In this document: piece by piece, positions 35,632-58,159 of the stretch | How the letters are laid out: each line of letters begins with the position of its first letter | Numbering within the stretch: position 1 is the first letter of the stretch | Origin: Cytobacillus sp. NCCP-133 | GTDB taxonomy: Bacteria; Bacillota; Bacilli; Bacillales; Cytobacillaceae | Reading direction: 5' to 3' | DNA length: 64,000 nucleotides | NCBI RefSeq assembly: GCF_026011715.1 | Contig: NZ_BRVM01000005.1 | Span: forward strand, 124,001-188,000 | The notes under the pieces: model-generated | What the model saw: only the letters and a program-made list of their open reading frames with translations | What the model was told of the DNA's origin: nothing | The model's database searches: none | Translations under genes and position numbers: made by a program

Positions 35632-36132
35632 ATGGATTTTTCAAAGCTTTACAGACTACATTACAAACGCCTTTTTTATATAAGTTTCTCGATTACAAAA
35701 GACGCTTTTCTCGCAGAGGATGTGGTACAAGAGACTTTTATTAAGGCCATGAAAAAGGCTGAAACGATAAATAATGAAGACAAAGTTGAAGCTTGGCTGT
35801 CTGTGATTGCCCGAAGGACCGCACTGGATGTTATTAGAAGGGAAAGGAAGAAGACCGCGGTCCCGATGGAGCAGGAAATGCTAGAATGTCTTTGCTTAAT
35901 TACAAAGCATAATGTTGAACAAGAAGTAGAATCAGAGTTTGTTGCTAAGGAAATAAAGGCAGCAATTCGGCAGCTGGCAAGAACCTACCAAGATGTTCTT
36001 TTACTCAAGGTTGATGGAGGATTAAAGGAACAAGAAATTGCCACCGTCTTAAATTTAAAGCCTTCGACTGTGAAAACAAGGATTTTCAGGGCGAGAAAGC
36101 AGCTTAAGACGATGGTGCAGGTAGGGGCATAG
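35632..36132 (+). CDS. ECF sigma factor
   Basis: The 166-residue protein has sigma region 2 (LYRLHYKRLFYIS, then AEDVVQETFIKAMK) and region 4 (LKEQEIATVLNLKPSTVKTRIFRARKQL, about 130-158). No anti-sigma gene follows, which is unusual for Bacillus ECF factors. It sits 18 bases after the kinase gene in one apparent operon, so the two-component system may itself control its output. The terminator at 36143 ends the operon. Confidence 0.88.
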   Translation: MDFSKLYRLHYKRLFYISFSITKDAFLAEDVVQETFIKAMKKAETINNEDKVEAWLSVIARRTALDVIRRERKKTAVPMEQEMLECLCLITKHNVEQEVESEFVAKEIKAAIRQLARTYQDVLLLKVDGGLKEQEIATVLNLKPSTVKTRIFRARKQLKTMVQVGA

Positions 36133-36186: not shown

Positions 36187-36657
36187 TTACCTTTCTGGCA
36201 TTGGCGTAGGGGTAGAAGCTGTGCCTAGTGATTCATATTTCTTGTCAATGTTTGTACGAATCGTTTTTATGTTCGTTCCTTTTTCAAATTCCTGTTTTGC
36301 CTCACGGGCAATATCTACACATATTCCTCAGCCAAAGCCCATGCTGTCGAGCTTTGCCGTGTCGCCTGCAACAGAATCAACAAAACAATGAGTATTGCTA
36401 ATATGTCCATCTTCTTCATAACATCCGCAATAGCAGGGCATATAGTCAAGCACTTCCGAATGTTCCACAGCAAATTGATAAGCTTCAAGAACTTTAGTGC
36501 TGTTAGTGAGAGAAGTAACCGCAGACCAATCATTACTGCCTATTTTGTATTCAAGCTTAGGCTTATGCAAATCGGAATCCTCAGAGCCTTGTCCATTAGC
36601 AGAACAGCCTGAGATTAAAAGAGTTCCAAGAAAAAATGGGATGACTAATTTTTGCAC
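36187..36657 (-). CDS. PCYCGC-motif lipoprotein with in-frame UGA at Cys-110 (candidate selenoprotein)
   Basis: The start is GTG 36657 behind AGGAGTGG. A lipoprotein signal ends LLISGC (lipid Cys18). The PCYCGC motif is at 74-79 and another Cys at 91. The frame meets TGA at 36328-36330 (codon 110) and then runs GICVDIAREAKQEF...SLGTASTPTPMPER to TAA 36187. The continuation is recognisable as the PCYCGC family C-terminus, where this position belongs to a GCxxC motif, so the TGA stands at the first Cys of CxxC (U-G-I-C113). A hairpin follows with its loop 21 nt after the TGA. If not recoded, the protein ends at 109 residues and loses its last third. Known role: none certain; cell-surface, possibly metal- or thiol-linked. 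Confidence 0.75.
36297..36330 (-). promoter_or_regulatory. SECIS-like stem-loop after UGA-110
   Basis: Minus strand: UGA (36330-36328), 16 nt, then TTGCC-CGTGA-GGCAA. The stem is 5 bp (3 G-C), the loop 5 nt with G at position 2, and 21 nt separate the UGA from the loop. This fits the described bacterial SECIS geometry (loop 16-37 nt away, G among the first two loop bases). Confidence 0.5.
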
Positions 36658-36860
36658 TTAAGTCCACTCCTGCTTCAATAATAACATTCAGTTCTTATTA
36701 AGATTACCATTGAAAATGAATCGGTGCAGTGACAAAAATCGCAACTTTTATTATTTTTTTACCAGGTTATAGTGGCTTATGGAATTAGTACCTGTTATTT
36801 AATTTATGTAGATATATTTACCTCTTTAAAAATTGTCCTCCTTTTTAAATGCATTTTCTT

Positions 36861-37004: not shown

Positions 37005-37185
37005 TTGTCATCACCCCTATAAAAATTATGTGTCAGAGTTGGTTTTCATGTTAGGATTTATAAAGAACGAACTTGATAGATGGCAGAAGTGCGTTTATGC
37101 CGCTGGGAGACTATTCGTTCAGTAAAAAATATGGATGGGTTGCTGATCAGTTGGGAGATTTTTAGTTTTGGGAGGAAATAATCAA

Positions 37186-37560
37186 ATGATCTATTTTTTT
37201 GTCGGTTTGGCGGGAATGCTGGGAGCTTCGCTGAGATACATTGTCGGAGTAATATTATTTACGGAGAGTGTTTTTCCGTTTGCCACCTTGCTGGTTAACT
37301 TGATTGGAAGTTTTTTATTGGCATGGCTAACCACAAACATTATTAAGAAATTTTCCATCTCCCCAATTGCGGCTGCAACGATTGGAACGGGTTTTGTCGG
37401 TTCATTCACTACTTTCTCCACGTTGAGTATTGAAACTGTCACCTTGTTTCAGGATGGAAAGCTGCTAATGGGACTGAGTTATGTCCTGATAAGTGTGCTG
37501 GGAGGATTAGTGATGAGCAGGCTCGGATTTAAAATAAGCGAAGAGGTGCGGGAATCATGA
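37186..37560 (+). CDS. crcB: Fluoride channel Fluc/CrcB, first copy
   Basis: The 124-residue protein has four membrane helices, GxxGASLRY at the N-terminus, the NLIGSFLL motif (about 41-48) and GFVGSFTTFSTLSIE (about 71-85), all hallmarks of Fluc fluoride channels. ATG 37186 is preferred over TTG 37168 because GGGAGG precedes it. Its stop overlaps the next gene by four bases (ATGA). Paired crcB genes in Bacillaceae form heteromeric channels. Confidence 0.93.
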   Translation: MIYFFVGLAGMLGASLRYIVGVILFTESVFPFATLLVNLIGSFLLAWLTTNIIKKFSISPIAAATIGTGFVGSFTTFSTLSIETVTLFQDGKLLMGLSYVLISVLGGLVMSRLGFKISEEVRES

Positions 37561-37928
37561 GTGTCATAAACATTTTATTGGTGGGAATTGGAGGATTCCT
37601 GGGAGCAGTTGCCCGATTTTCTTTAAGCAAGCTGTTAAACAATAAAACGGACACTTCCTTTCCAATCGGGACACTTACTGTCAATTTATTGGGGTCTTTT
37701 TTATTGGGCGTTATAATAGGGACTGATCCTAATGAAATGGCTGTTTTGTTAATGGGAACTGGTTTTATGGGCGCGTTTACGACATTTTCCACTCTTAAGC
37801 TGGAAATGATGCACCTCCATTTAAATGAGCACAGAAAGGTTTTCATGCTGTATATTGCCATTACATATGGGGCGGGAATTACGCTTGCGTATGCGGGATT
37901 CATGCTGGGAAGAATGTTTATTGAATAA
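37557..37928 (+). CDS. crcB: Fluoride channel Fluc/CrcB, second copy
   Basis: The 123-residue partner has GGFLGAVARF, the NLLGSFLLG motif and GFMGAFTTFSTLKLE. Translation is coupled to the first copy through ATGA. The pair exports fluoride passively from the cytoplasm. It ends in a large hairpin. Confidence 0.93.
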   Translation: MSVINILLVGIGGFLGAVARFSLSKLLNNKTDTSFPIGTLTVNLLGSFLLGVIIGTDPNEMAVLLMGTGFMGAFTTFSTLKLEMMHLHLNEHRKVFMLYIAITYGAGITLAYAGFMLGRMFIE

Positions 37929-38874: not shown

Positions 38875-40101
38875 TTAATTCGCTTTCAATCCTTCTCTTT
38901 TCGCCTCTGTTTCCGCCACAATAACAGCGCATGCGGCGTCGCCTGTAATGTTTACAGCCGTACGAGTCATATCAAGCAGTCGGTCAATTCCAATGATTAA
39001 GGCTATGCCTTCAACTGGCAGGTTCACTGAATTCAGAACCATGGCGAGCATGATTAATCCTACTCCAGGAACACCAGCAGTGCCGACACTGGCAAGAACC
39101 GCTGTCAGGACAACAGTGATCAGCTGTGTAAAAGTCAAATCAACACCGAATACTTGGGCAATAAAAATTGTAGCAACCCCCTGCATGATTGCCGTGCCAT
39201 CCATGTTAATAGTCGCTCCAAGCGGCTGAACAAAGCTGCTGATCGACTCTGGCACTTTCAAATTTTTCTGGGCTGTACTCATAGAAATTGGCAGGGTCGC
39301 ATTACTGCTCGAAGTACTGAAGGCAACACCCATTGCAGGAGCAAAGCCTTTAAAGAACCAGATTGGGCTCTTTTTAGCAAAAAACGCTACAGAAGTTCCA
39401 TATGTCAAAATGGCATGAATAAGAAGTGCAGCGACAACCACGATCATATATAGTCCCATTGCTTTAATTGCAGAAAGCCCTTGGCTGCCGACAGCAGATA
39501 CAATCAGGCCAAATGTTCCGTATGGTGCAAACTTCATAACCAGATTAACCAGGTACATCATAATGTCATTGCCTTGTTCAATGAGGTTCAATATCCCTTT
39601 TGTTTTGCTGCCAAGCATGGTTAATGCAAATCCGACAAATATGGAGAAAGCAATAATCTGCAGCATATTTCCTTCAGTGAACGCTTTCACAGGATTGGTT
39701 GGAATGATATTTAATAGTGTATCAGTTACTGGCGGAGCTTCTTTTGATTCAAACTCAGCATTTGTAATATCGAATTCTCCGATATTTCCCGGCTGAATGA
39801 CAGACGCAAGACCAAGTCCGATTGTAATGGCAACACTCGTTGTGAGCAGGAAGAATCCAATGGTTTTAATTCCAATCCGCCCAAGCTTCTTCGGATCACC
39901 AAGGCCGGCAGTTCCAAGTGTGATTGAAAAGAAAACAATCGGAACAACAAGCATATTGATAAGATTCAGAAAGATTTTTCCAAGTGGTGTAAAGATAAAT
40001 TGATCAAGTTCGGGATAAATGCTTGATGCAAATAAATTAATCAGAAGGCCGGTGATTCCGCCAGCGATCAAGGCAAGAATGATCTTAGTTGATAACTTCA
40101 T
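38875..40101 (-). CDS. Dicarboxylate/amino acid:cation symporter (DAACS, GltT/GltP-like)
   Basis: The 408-residue protein has eight helices and the family's re-entrant loop signatures: STSSSNATLPIS (the SSSxxTLP motif), NMDGTA in helix 7 and VGTAGVPG followed by IDRLLDMTRTAVNITGD in helix 8. It imports glutamate/aspartate or C4-dicarboxylates with Na+ or H+. ATG 40101 follows GGAGG; the open frame continues to 40239 but crosses the terminator hairpin of the leader. A ydaO-type c-di-AMP riboswitch precedes it, so import should be shut off when c-di-AMP is high. Confidence 0.9.
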   Translation of the reverse strand: MKLSTKIILALIAGGITGLLINLFASSIYPELDQFIFTPLGKIFLNLINMLVVPIVFFSITLGTAGLGDPKKLGRIGIKTIGFFLLTTSVAITIGLGLASVIQPGNIGEFDITNAEFESKEAPPVTDTLLNIIPTNPVKAFTEGNMLQIIAFSIFVGFALTMLGSKTKGILNLIEQGNDIMMYLVNLVMKFAPYGTFGLIVSAVGSQGLSAIKAMGLYMIVVVAALLIHAILTYGTSVAFFAKKSPIWFFKGFAPAMGVAFSTSSSNATLPISMSTAQKNLKVPESISSFVQPLGATINMDGTAIMQGVATIFIAQVFGVDLTFTQLITVVLTAVLASVGTAGVPGVGLIMLAMVLNSVNLPVEGIALIIGIDRLLDMTRTAVNITGDAACAVIVAETEAKREGLKAN

Positions 40102-40184
40102 ATTCAAATTCCTCCAGTGGTTAGAATAACAAAAAAATACTTCTTGATAATATCCATTTACAGGATATACCCCAAAAAAGGCAG

Positions 40185-40214
40185 TAAAAAAACACAGAGG
40201 CAAAAACCACTGTG
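40185..40214 (-). terminator. Riboswitch-controlled terminator
   Basis: On the minus strand CACAG-tg-G...CCTCTGTG is followed by TTTTTTT, between the ydaO aptamer and the symporter start. Confidence 0.65.
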
Positions 40215-40237
40215 CAATACGGCCGTGTTTTCCTCTC

Positions 40238-40360
40238 AATGCGCTTACGAGGTTAGCTGTCGGATTCGGGTTTTGAGAGTACCCTACCTAAAAAGGATTC
40301 ACCCCAGGTACTTACTTTATAAGTACGATTGGTTCCCCCGCTCAAAAGATTAAGCGAAAT
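40238..40360 (-). ncRNA. c-di-AMP (ydaO/yuaA) riboswitch
   Basis: The minus strand carries the conserved ydaO blocks in order: CGCTTAATC, GCGGGGGAACCAATCG, CTGGGGTGAATCC, TAGGTAGGGT, and CCCGAATCCGACAGCTAACC followed by TCGTAAGCGC. These are the nearly invariant parts of this large aptamer. It is followed by an intrinsic terminator before the symporter gene, as expected for an OFF switch. Confidence 0.9.
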
Positions 40361-40555
40361 AATTTATAAGTTTTTTTGAAGTATAACTTTAGTACTCTAA
40401 ATTATAAATTAATTTATATTCTTGCATCCTAGTTATGTCGATATAACTATCGATATGATAGTAATTTAATATGAAACGAATAATTTGTCAATTTATTAAG
40501 CAATAATTCATTCTATTGTCCCATCTGTAACTTAGAGATTAAATTTTTGTCAATT

Positions 40556-46783: not shown

Positions 46784-47152
46784 TTGGGGTCTAAAGATAC
46801 TTGTGATATTTATTGTTATGACAAAGAAAAGGTGACTCGGATACAATGGGAACTGCAGAAGGAAGACCTTTCTAGTGTAGCACAATTGTTTAAGGCGCTT
46901 GCAGATGAAAATAGAGCAAAGATTTCCTATGCACTTTGTCAGGATGAAGAACTGTGCGTCTGTGACATTGCCAATATAATTGGTTCCACTATCGCAACAG
47001 CATCCCACCATTTACGCACCCTTCATAAGCAAGGAATCGTAAAGTTTCGAAAAGAAGGCAAATTGGCTTTTTATTCGTTGGATGATGCTCATATTAAGCA
47101 ATTATTGCTTATTGCTATGGAACATAGAAATGAGGTGAAATCCAATGTCTGA
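46784..47152 (+). CDS. cadC: CadC, ArsR/SmtB-family metal-sensing repressor
   Basis: The 122-residue protein has N-terminal Cys7 and Cys11 and the ELCVCD motif (Cys about 58 and 60), which form the four-thiolate Cd/Pb/Zn site of CadC. A winged helix follows (ATASHHLRTLHKQGIV). It represses the cad operator until metal binds. The start is TTG 46784 after AGGGGG. Its stop overlaps the cadA start by 8 bases, so expression is coupled. Confidence 0.9.
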   Translation: MGSKDTCDIYCYDKEKVTRIQWELQKEDLSSVAQLFKALADENRAKISYALCQDEELCVCDIANIIGSTIATASHHLRTLHKQGIVKFRKEGKLAFYSLDDAHIKQLLLIAMEHRNEVKSNV

Positions 47153-49277
47153 ACAAGCGAGATTAGCTGAACAGCAAACGAAAACCTATCGTGTTCAGGG
47201 CTTTTCCTGAGCAGGCTGTGCCAAAACGTTCGAAGAGAACGTGAAGCGCCTGGATGGCGTTTTAGATGCGAATGTTAATTTTGGTGCATCCAAAATTACG
47301 GTTACCGGAACAGCTGCAATGGAAGCTATTGAAAAGGCCGGAGCCTTTGAAAAGCTGAAGCTGCGCACTGAAAATGAAAGAACAGCTGAGCGTGAGCCTT
47401 TTTGGAAGCAAAAAGAAAACTACAAAGTATATTTTTCTGCCGTGCTCCTGATGATCAGCTGGATTTTAAGCAAGCAGTATGGTGAGGACCATATCTATCC
47501 GATCATCGGATATGCAGCAGCCATTTTAATTGGTGGATACACCTTATTCCTTAAAGGCTTTAAAAATCTGTTCCGATTGAATTTTGATATGAGTACTCTG
47601 ATGACCATCGCCATTATCGGTGCAGCAATTATTGGCGAATGGGGAGAAGGCGCCATGGTTGTCATATTGTTTGCAATTAGTGAGGCACTTGAACGCTATT
47701 CGATCGATAAAGCTCGTCAATCAATTGAATCATTGATGGATATTGCTCCAAAAGAAGCGTTAATTCGCCGCGGTACAGAAGAAATGATCATTCATGTTAA
47801 TGAGATTCAAATCGGGGATGTCATGATTGTGAAACCTGGGCAAAAGCTTGCTATGGACGGAATCGTTATTAAAGGGACATCGACTCTGAACCAGGCAGCG
47901 ATAACGGGGGAAAGTGTTCCCGCCACCAAATCGGCTGATGATGAGGTGTTCGCAGGAACCTTAAATGAAGAAGGTCTGCTCGAAGTGAAAGTAACGAAAC
48001 GGGTGGAAGATACGACAATTTCGAAAATCATTCATTTAGTGGAAGAAGCGCAGGCGGAAAAAGCGCCTTCCCAGCAATTTGTTGATAAATTTGCAAAGTA
48101 TTACACACCGGCCATTATTCTTTTAGCGCTGTTAATCGCCCTCGTCCCGCCATTACTCGGAGGGGATTGGAGCGAGTGGATTTATCAGGGTTTGGCAGCT
48201 TTGGTTGTAGGCTGTCCTTGTGCACTGGTTGTTTCAACGCCAGTTGCTGTGGTGACAGCGATCGGCAACGCAGCGAGGAATGGAGTGCTGATAAAAGGCG
48301 GCATACACCTGGAAGAGGCTGGATCGCTAAAAGCGATTGCCTTTGATAAAACAGGTACGTTAACCAAGGGTGTCCCTGCAGTTACGGATGTAGTCGCTTA
48401 TGATGGTGATGAAACTGAATTATTAAAAGTTACAGCCGCGATTGAAAAAGGTTCACAGCATCCTTTGGCTTCAGCCATCATGCGAAAGGCAGAGGGAAAT
48501 GGAGCAGATTTTAACTCTGTGACAGTTGAGGATTTCCAATCCCTCACCGGGAGAGGGGTAAAGGCGCTCCTGAATGAAAAGCTTTATTACGTAGGAAGCC
48601 CTAAGCTGTTTGAAGAACTCCATGGAACAGTGGAAAGGGATACTAGTCAGAAGATTACAGAACTTCAGGCGCAGGGAAAAACAGTTATGGTGTTAGGAAC
48701 GGAACAAGAGATTCTTTCATTGATTGCAGTAGCAGATGAAATGAGGGAAAGTTCCAGATTGGTCATCAGTAAGCTGAACAGCATGGGAATCAGTACCGTT
48801 ATGCTGACAGGTGATAATCAGCTTACAGCTGATGCAATCGGAAAGCAAGCGGGGGTTGCTGATATTAAAGCAGATTTGCTTCCACAAGATAAACTGACTT
48901 TTATAAAAGAACTGCGCGCTCATCATAAAAACGTGGCAATGGTTGGAGATGGCGTAAATGATGCACCAGCTCTTGCAGCCTCGACTGTGGGAATTGCCAT
49001 GGGCGGAGCTGGAACGGATACCGCCCTCGAAACAGCCGATATTGCCTTGATGTCAGATGATCTAACAAATCTGCCATATACGATTAGGCTGAGCCGTAAA
49101 GCATTGGGGATTATTAAGCAAAATATCACATTTTCCCTAGCGATAAAACTATTGGCATTGCTGCTTGTGATTCCGGGTTGGCTGACGTTATGGCTGGCGA
49201 TCTTTGCAGACATGGGGGCAACTTTGCTGGTTACCTTGAACAGTTTACGATTATTAAAGGTAAAAAAGAATAATTAA
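47145..49277 (+). CDS. cadA: Cd/Zn/Pb-exporting P1B-ATPase CadA with in-frame UGA at Cys-22 (candidate selenoprotein)
   Basis: The frame starts at ATG 47145 behind GAGGTG and encodes an HMA domain, YRVQGFS-[TGA][12 protein letters not shown], where the TGA (47208-47210) replaces the first Cys of GFxCxxC. It then runs without interruption to TAA 49277: six to eight helices, TGES phosphatase loop, GCPCALV metal site in the membrane, DKTGTLT phosphorylation site, MLTGDN and [11 protein letters not shown]. If the TGA is recoded the product has 710 residues with a UxxC metal site. If it is a stop, only re-initiation at GTG 47241 gives a 678-residue pump lacking the CxxC. A hairpin follows the TGA (47226-47242). 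It exports soft divalent metals at ATP cost. Confidence 0.85.
47208..47242 (+). promoter_or_regulatory. SECIS-like stem-loop after UGA-22 of cadA
   Basis: TGA (47208-47210) is followed by 15 nt and then ACGTTC-GAAGA-GAACGT. The stem is a perfect 6 bp, the loop 5 nt with G first, and 21 nt separate the TGA from the loop, identical spacing to the PCYCGC gene. It fits the general form of bacterial SECIS elements. Confidence 0.5.
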
Positions 49278-53758: not shown

Positions 53759-53773
53759 TTAAAAAACTGAAAA

Positions 53774-53845
53774 GGCCATGTGTAACTGGCGAAACGCGGA
53801 TTACCGCGAGGGAGCACATGGTATCAAAGCCGTTCGCCTGGGCAG
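53774..53845 (+). ncRNA. ZTP (pfl) riboswitch
   Basis: It carries the conserved blocks CATGTGTAACTGGCG, a variable GCGG..CCGC stem, GAGGGAGCACATG and the 3' domain GCCGttCGCCTGGGCA, which are the hallmark pseudoknotted core of pfl RNAs sensing ZMP/ZTP. A terminator hairpin overlaps its 3' edge, so it should act as an ON switch for the dehydrogenase when folate and purine synthesis stall. Confidence 0.88.
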
Positions 53846-53880
53846 AGGTAAGGGATTCTACCCTTGCCTCTTTCTGTTTA
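53844..53880 (+). terminator. Riboswitch-controlled terminator
   Basis: GAGG(t)AAGGG-attcta-CCCTT(g)CCTC is followed by TTTCTGTTT. Confidence 0.75.
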
Positions 53881-57737: not shown

Positions 57738-58037
57738 GGGCCAGTGTATCCTTTAACAGGGAAGCTGCAGATAAAATTAAAAACCTGAAACTACAAGAAA
57801 AGTTGCAGAAATATAGGAGAATTTGCAAATATAAATCTCAAAACCTCCTAATAAAATTTGTGGTGAGGGTGGTACATTAAGAAATCCTTGCAAATTATCC
57901 AGCTAAGTAAGGAATATTTTATTATTTTTTTGATATAAACGAACCTTTTATAGTATTTTAGTAATATTATTCGTATTTTTTGTTGCGCTTCTCTTTGTTA
58001 TTTGTTATATTTGCATAGTAATATTATTTTATTTCAT
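57738..58037. other. Gap without a recognised gene before the purine riboswitch
   Basis: This AT-rich stretch includes GTGAGGGTGGTAC, which resembles part of a T-box, but the rest of the T-box signature is absent. It probably carries the riboswitch promoter near its end. Confidence 0.3.
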
Positions 58038-58110
58038 CACTCGTATATGCTCGGTAATATGGTCTGAGCGTTTCTACCTGGTTCCCAATGAAAGAACCGG
58101 ACTACGGGTT
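58038..58110 (+). ncRNA. Purine riboswitch, guanine type
   Basis: P1 ACTCGTAT pairs loosely with TACGGGTT. P2 is GCTC...GAGC with loop TAATATGG. J2/3 is GTTTCTACC. P3 is GGTTC..GAACC with loop CCAATGAAA. The key position 74 is C in GGACTACGGG, which indicates guanine/hypoxanthine specificity rather than adenine. A terminator follows, giving an OFF switch. Confidence 0.92.
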
Positions 58111-58159
58111 AAAGTATTTGGACAAGTTCTGTAATTTACGAACATTACTTTAACTCCGC

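Follow-up and report, generated by a model that had tools for sequence, protein, structure and literature searches.

The 64,000-nucleotide stretch of Cytobacillus sp. NCCP-133 analyzed here (contig NZ_BRVM01000005.1, positions 124,001 to 188,000; this whole stretch is called the window in the following) raises the question whether the TGA at codon 110 of a gene for a lipoprotein of the PCYCGC family (PF13798) terminates a product of 109 residues or is read as selenocysteine (Sec) within a protein of 156 residues. An earlier note, made from the sequence of the window, had pointed to this TGA and to 46 in-frame codons behind it, and had stated that conventional gene calling would truncate the protein. 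The codons are indeed present up to a TAA, and ordinary calling of open reading frames (ORFs) ends at 109 amino acids. The TGA observed at positions 36328-36330 is far beyond chance, and five tests based on sequence comparison agree that the UGA at residue 110 is very likely decoded as Sec.

Among the 193 genomes of the taxonomic family that were searched, 114 have a match to the PF13798 family, a few of these being fragments. From the fetched loci holding both Cys motifs, 139 distinct Bacillaceae genes were obtained, with copies identical over 240 bases around the codon counted once and a few short fragments left out (besides unfetched fragments in genomes G029, G045 and G127, the set excludes the frameshifted copy L054 and the remnants L155 and L156). 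At the column of codon 110, these genes carry TGA in 116 cases and a Cys codon in 23 (TGT 16, TGC 7), and in the 54 members of the protein alignment, all matching PF13798 at the E-value used, this column is exclusively Cys or Sec. The earlier note had assigned the TGA to a Cys column of the family and named a family alignment as the check that might refute this; now that the alignment has been run, the assignment stands. Behind the TGA, Cys113 is invariant, and not one of the 116 TGA genes has an in-frame stop in the 38 codons past the UGA, whereas 114 and 116 of them, respectively, have stops in the other two frames. The ratio of nonsynonymous to synonymous changes (pN/pS) past the hairpin described below (codons +13 to +37) is 0.33 versus 0.17 before the UGA, as calculated for 171 pairs from the clade of the window gene.

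Downstream of the UGA, the window gene bears a predicted selenocysteine insertion sequence (SECIS) hairpin with its loop at a spacing of 21 nt and a G at loop position 2. Both features, the former described by the earlier note as equal to the spacing in a cadA gene of the same window, can be read directly in the sequence. In the family, the hairpin shows a 5-bp stem beginning 16 nt past the UGA and a loop CGUGA or CGGGA in 103/106 cases. A full stem is present in 105 of the 106 distinct Sec sequences versus 1 of 70 Cys sequences. When codon columns were shuffled 1000 times while keeping the protein, the number of complete stems averaged 56.7 and never exceeded 69 among the 106 sequences. Two-sided stem changes are CG/AT/TA at one pair and CG/GC at another, a third pair being altered in locus L196 alone. 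Single-sequence folding energy parts Sec from Cys forms only modestly (mean z of -1.39 versus -0.09).

The machinery for Sec synthesis and incorporation, for which the earlier note had proposed to search, is present in the host genome, with profile scores above the curated cut-offs for SelA (559.7 bits), SelB (388.6 bits) and SelD (422.3 bits) and a tRNA-Sec at 58.3 bits, likewise above cut-off, to which ARAGORN assigns the anticodon tca. The host SelD gene (L019, G000:C18:27521-28447) contains one in-frame TGA as well, and the selenophosphate synthetase is likely itself a selenoprotein. In the family sample, 172 genomes have selA over cut-off, and 113 of them hold a PCYCGC match (a few of these matches being fragments), as does 1 of the 21 genomes without selA over cut-off. 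In an order-wide sample, PF13798 is found in 139 of 249 genomes, mostly in copies lacking the TGA; at least 23 genomes, as counted among the matches listed, have a TGA copy, and all of these belong to the 116 genomes having selA over cut-off (P = 6e-9, phylogeny not corrected).

Some observations limit the case for decoding of the UGA as Sec or run counter to it. The number of pair types in the stem is not above that of the shuffles, 142 of 1000 reaching the observed value, and hence the hairpin argument rests on the completeness of the stem, its loss in Cys forms and the few two-sided changes. Outside the aligned and codon sets, the column is occupied by Leu in one database entry and by Trp in two, the latter of which could be translations with TGA read as Trp. 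In genome G171 (L038, L157 and L184), the hairpin behind the UGA of the PCYCGC gene is intact, but SelA, SelB and tRNA-Sec over cut-off are missing; this genome is listed with 5% contamination, and its UGA copy may represent contamination, a recent transfer or a dead gene. Finally, the TGA copy in a metagenome-assembled genome (MAG) of the Actinomycetes (L258) lacks the full stem, making the Sec reading less sure in this case.

In a tree of the 139 proteins, the window protein falls into a well-supported clade of 19 members, all with Sec. The Sec/Cys label requires 5 changes on this tree (4-5 in bootstrap trees, while the starred branches alone force 2), and Cys forms appear at several places, the biggest Cys clade having 13 members. 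As the tree is rooted at its midpoint only, these changes may run in either direction. Among the best 80 named loci, Sec forms are spread across many Bacillaceae genera and extend to one Chloroflexota MAG (L210) and to the Actinomycetes MAG mentioned above; Cys is found at loci from Paenibacillus, Metabacillus and Lysinibacillus. Bacillus methanolicus PB1 carries a UGA copy (L194). Genome G048 belongs to the same genus (g1) as the window genome. Genome G051 holds an intact copy on another contig in addition to the frameshifted one, and the two C-terminal remnants stem from G060 and G074; some lineages seem to have a PCYCGC gene in decay.

Public copies of the gene are very likely cut short. 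From 80 protein database matches, 73 measure 98-127 residues, and 73 end with MGFG, MGLG, MGFS or MGLS, the residues right before the UGA column, while the remaining 7 continue past it with Cys (4), Trp (2) or Leu (1). The NCBIfam equivalog model NF041379 (OS_HP4 CYCXC (seleno)protein) gives the window protein 69.9 bits, below its cut-off of 90 bits, and the same holds for all 13 proteins scored (63.5-86.4 bits), i.e., nine further Sec members at 67.0-86.4, two Cys forms at 63.5 and 73.9 and the Leu entry at 74.8 bits. Selenoprotein families on record already include PF13798 in a Sec form: PMC13188914 has in its selenoprotein table a CYCXC family protein (PF13798, UxxC), attributed to Zhang and Gladyshev 2007, and OS_HP4 is listed with UxxC in PMC9312934. 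The window gene is a further member, sharing with OS_HP4 the PF13798 domain and one Sec in a UxxC motif; in contrast to OS_HP4, which comes from a symbiotic deltaproteobacterium, it encodes a Bacillaceae lipoprotein scoring under the NF041379 cut-off. The PCYCGC lipoprotein AOT13_14730 of Parageobacillus thermoglucosidasius (PMC13068155), to which its authors did not confidently assign a function, is likewise a PF13798 lipoprotein with conserved Cys beyond the PCYCGC motif, but is reported to have an Fe3+ binding protein as neighbor, and the main text of that paper does not contain 'selen'. No account of a Sec-containing PCYCGC protein in Bacillaceae or of a relation to CcmH was found in the open-licence papers searched; as far as these sources go, the Bacillaceae spread, the model cut-off hiding the family, the distant CcmH relation and the two gene-neighborhood settings outlined below were not found in print.

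With 95.9 bits against a gathering cut-off of 25, the window protein is assigned to PF13798. Invariant across the 54-member alignment are C75, C77, C79, H85, C91, C/U110 and C113. The surface anchoring expected by the earlier note is supported by the lipobox of the window protein, and the corresponding pattern occurs in 132 of the 139 family genes (by simple pattern match, not a dedicated signal-peptide predictor); the protein would be lipidated and face outward. Scanning for promoters and terminators gave nothing clearly above shuffled sequence.

Features of the PCYCGC gene and its neighbors in the window (position 1 is the first nucleotide of the window)
Feature	Position	Strand	Basis
PCYCGC-family (PF13798) lipoprotein gene, 156 residues with one UGA read through	36187..36657	-	GTG start at 36657, TAA stop at 36189-36187
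Shine-Dalgarno-like AGGAG, at normal distance upstream of GTG	36667..36671	-	sequence
Lipobox ISGC, residues 15-18, ending at Cys18	36604..36615	-	C18 invariant in 54 alignment rows
PCYCGC motif, residues 74-79	36421..36438	-	C75, C77 and C79 invariant in alignment
His85-to-Cys91 stretch	36385..36405	-	His85 and Cys91 invariant in alignment
In-frame UGA, predicted Sec110, position 1 of U-G-I-C	36328..36330	-	alignment, homologue codons
UGIC motif, residues 110-113	36319..36330	-	directly before and into helix 111-125 of structure model
Predicted SECIS hairpin, 5-bp stem (36311-36307/36301-36297) and 5-nt loop CGUGA (36306-36302)	36297..36311	-	conservation, folding
Sigma-70-family (ECF-type, extracytoplasmic function) sigma factor gene, other flank	35632..36132	+	ORF list
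Two adjoining CrcB/FluC-type genes	37168-37560 and 37557-37928	+	ORF list, neighbor clustering
CadA-like heavy-metal P-type ATPase gene with its own in-frame UGA	47145..49277	+	UGA 47208-47210 in GFSUAGC metal-binding motif

A hint at the kind of protein comes from structure models, as the CcmH structure 2hl7 is the best Foldseek match for two of them, the other matches being low-scoring and of mixed kinds, which does not argue against other folds, and as the C-terminal helix pair of the PCYCGC protein matches CcmH (PF03918) by profile. From the models, the PCYCGC family is predicted to have a fold distantly related to CcmH, the cytochrome-c thiol reductase of System I, with which a large sister subfamily also shares an operon. 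Unlike CcmH, the window protein lacks a PF03918 match (only 1 of the 54 aligned members has one, at E = 0.036) and the LRCxxC motif, and it possesses an extra segment comprising His85, Cys91, a beta hairpin and UxxC. A sequence homologue search in the PDB gave none under E = 0.15.

The sister subfamily (motif SISUDVC and similar) is often located inside a Ccm operon, with a broad order at five loci of elongation factor P, the PCYCGC gene, dihaem cytochrome c, a secreted protein, CcmE, CcmF and CcmH, followed by two small or secreted proteins, a CcmA-like ABC ATPase, CcmB-like and CcmC-like proteins and a thioredoxin-fold protein. Cytochrome c, CcmE, CcmF, CcmH, the CcmC-like and the thioredoxin-fold protein are named by Pfam on representatives, and the other labels by position and a look at the sequence. 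Among 133 loci, the cytochrome c cluster is near 74, CcmE near 63 and CcmF near 52, short flanks limiting these counts. A search by tblastn at six Ccm-operon loci revealed intact CcmH in L263, L264, L265 and L268 and a CcmH split over two frames in L267, while none was found in L266 (G155), whose Ccm operon includes the PCYCGC gene; the latter might be a natural CcmH replacement there. In the System I operons of Bacillaceae at L263-L269, CcmH has a CTCGCGQD motif where LRCxxC is expected.

A different setting is found for the subfamily of the window gene, for which neighbors were counted at the 27 named loci L179-L205 (two of these loci share a genome, and two have Cys). Of these, 11 have a heavy-metal P-type ATPase as neighbor, in 9 of 11 cases with the DMGATL motif of the Zn/Cd type, 7 have an ABC-3/Znu-type permease and 6 have CopC/CopD, with any of the three types at 19 of the 27. 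The P-type ATPase cluster, which may mix metal types, is near only 2 of 44 other Cys-form loci versus the 11 of 27 here (Fisher P = 2e-4). An ABC ATPase neighbor cluster was left uncounted, as unrelated ABC ATPases may fall into one cluster. The CadA-like gene of the window lies 10.5 kb from the PCYCGC gene and bears a 6-bp hairpin with the loop 21 nt downstream of its UGA, as read from the sequence. In PMC13188914, a Sec-containing cation-transporting ATPase (TIGR01525, UxxC) is listed; such a pump is UGA-encoded in the window, too, and resides in the membrane, whereas the PCYCGC protein is a lipoprotein. FluC pairs are also found near the homologue in L198, L199, L201 and L202. Elsewhere in the window, a c-di-AMP riboswitch (97.1 bits, 40228-40366, minus strand) is situated directly upstream of the gene 38875-40239, which by its sequence looks like a dicarboxylate/amino-acid symporter, a ZTP riboswitch (53772-53850, plus strand) is ahead of an apparent phosphoglycerate dehydrogenase gene, and a purine riboswitch (58021-58124, plus strand) precedes a lipoprotein gene resembling a nucleosidase, the latter two labels also deriving from a look at the sequence.

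We consider it rather probable that the PCYCGC protein is a cell-surface lipoprotein whose UxxC, with Sec110 decoded from UGA, serves for selenol/thiol exchange within a helical domain predicted to resemble CcmH. SelB would deliver Sec-tRNA at the hairpin, and the lipidated protein would face outward. Sec110, directly preceding the model helix 111-125, would act as nucleophile and pair with Cys113, while the set of CxCxC, His85 and Cys91, which would match the active-site region of CcmH, might serve as second redox pair or as metal site, with exchange taking place between Sec110/Cys113 and this CxCxC-His-Cys site. In the subfamily of the window gene, the likely partners would be proteins handling soft metals, namely a heavy-metal P-type ATPase together with its ArsR regulator, an uptake system of the ABC-3/Znu type and CopC/CopD; for the sister subfamily, they would likely be the complex for Ccm maturation and cytochrome c itself. 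The mechanism may be selenol redox or metal-thiolate exchange. The idea of metal or thiol chemistry put forward in the earlier note agrees with the neighbors and with the predicted fold resembling CcmH, and remains a hypothesis.

The main rival, distinctly less probable though still a serious candidate, has Sec as a metal ligand, with the protein binding or handing over soft metals (Zn, Cd, Cu) on the outer surface via a CxCxC-His-Cys-UxxC site rather than acting as a redox enzyme. The seven invariant residues would suit such a site, and so would the neighboring ATPases, Znu-type permeases and CopC/CopD proteins, including the enrichment of the ATPase cluster over other Cys-form loci. However, a UxxC immediately ahead of a helix is the layout usually seen for redox chemistry, and both the location of the sister subfamily in Ccm operons and the CcmH-like fold of the models speak against this rival, too. 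That the host protein is an apocytochrome c reductase standing in for CcmH is improbable: fold and profile similarity as well as the operons of the sister subfamily would agree with this, and in relatives such as those with L266, or L267 with its split CcmH, the role is conceivable, but the host genome has no PF03918 match, no Ccm gene was noticed in the ORF listing of the window, and at 4 of the 6 Ccm-operon loci an uninterrupted CcmH accompanies the PCYCGC gene. CcmH replacement was rejected for the host, given the missing PF03918 match, and stays conceivable for some relatives.

Termination at the UGA, with the 109-residue protein as the product and the downstream part untranslated or decaying, is very improbable. 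The database matches ending right before the UGA column would be obtained from gene callers either way, and although the remnants and the frameshifted copy in relatives and the UGA copy of G171 would be compatible with it, the open frame behind the UGA, the invariant Cys113 and a hairpin kept in TGA forms but not in Cys forms argue for decoding. That the TGA is a misread TGC or TGT has a negligible chance, as TGA is found in all 19 members of the clade and the hairpin is present in the window gene, too.

With the UGA read through, a hitherto uncharacterized family gains a likely CcmH-like fold and two functional settings, cytochrome c maturation on the one hand and heavy-metal, zinc-type and copper transport on the other. 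None of the 10 Sec members that were scored reaches the NF041379 cut-off, which hides the family as well. Tentatively, the PCYCGC proteins might be CcmH-derived, outward-facing selenol reductases and, among the hidden selenoproteins of Bacillaceae, the most widespread ones, with one branch being a selenium-dependent component of cytochrome c maturation and the other, including the window protein, protecting or loading thiol sites in Zn/Cd/Cu homeostasis. In Bacillaceae with selA (172 of the 193 genomes sampled), the family is a frequent candidate client of the Sec machinery, and the demand for the protein may help to explain why so many Bacillaceae have kept this machinery.
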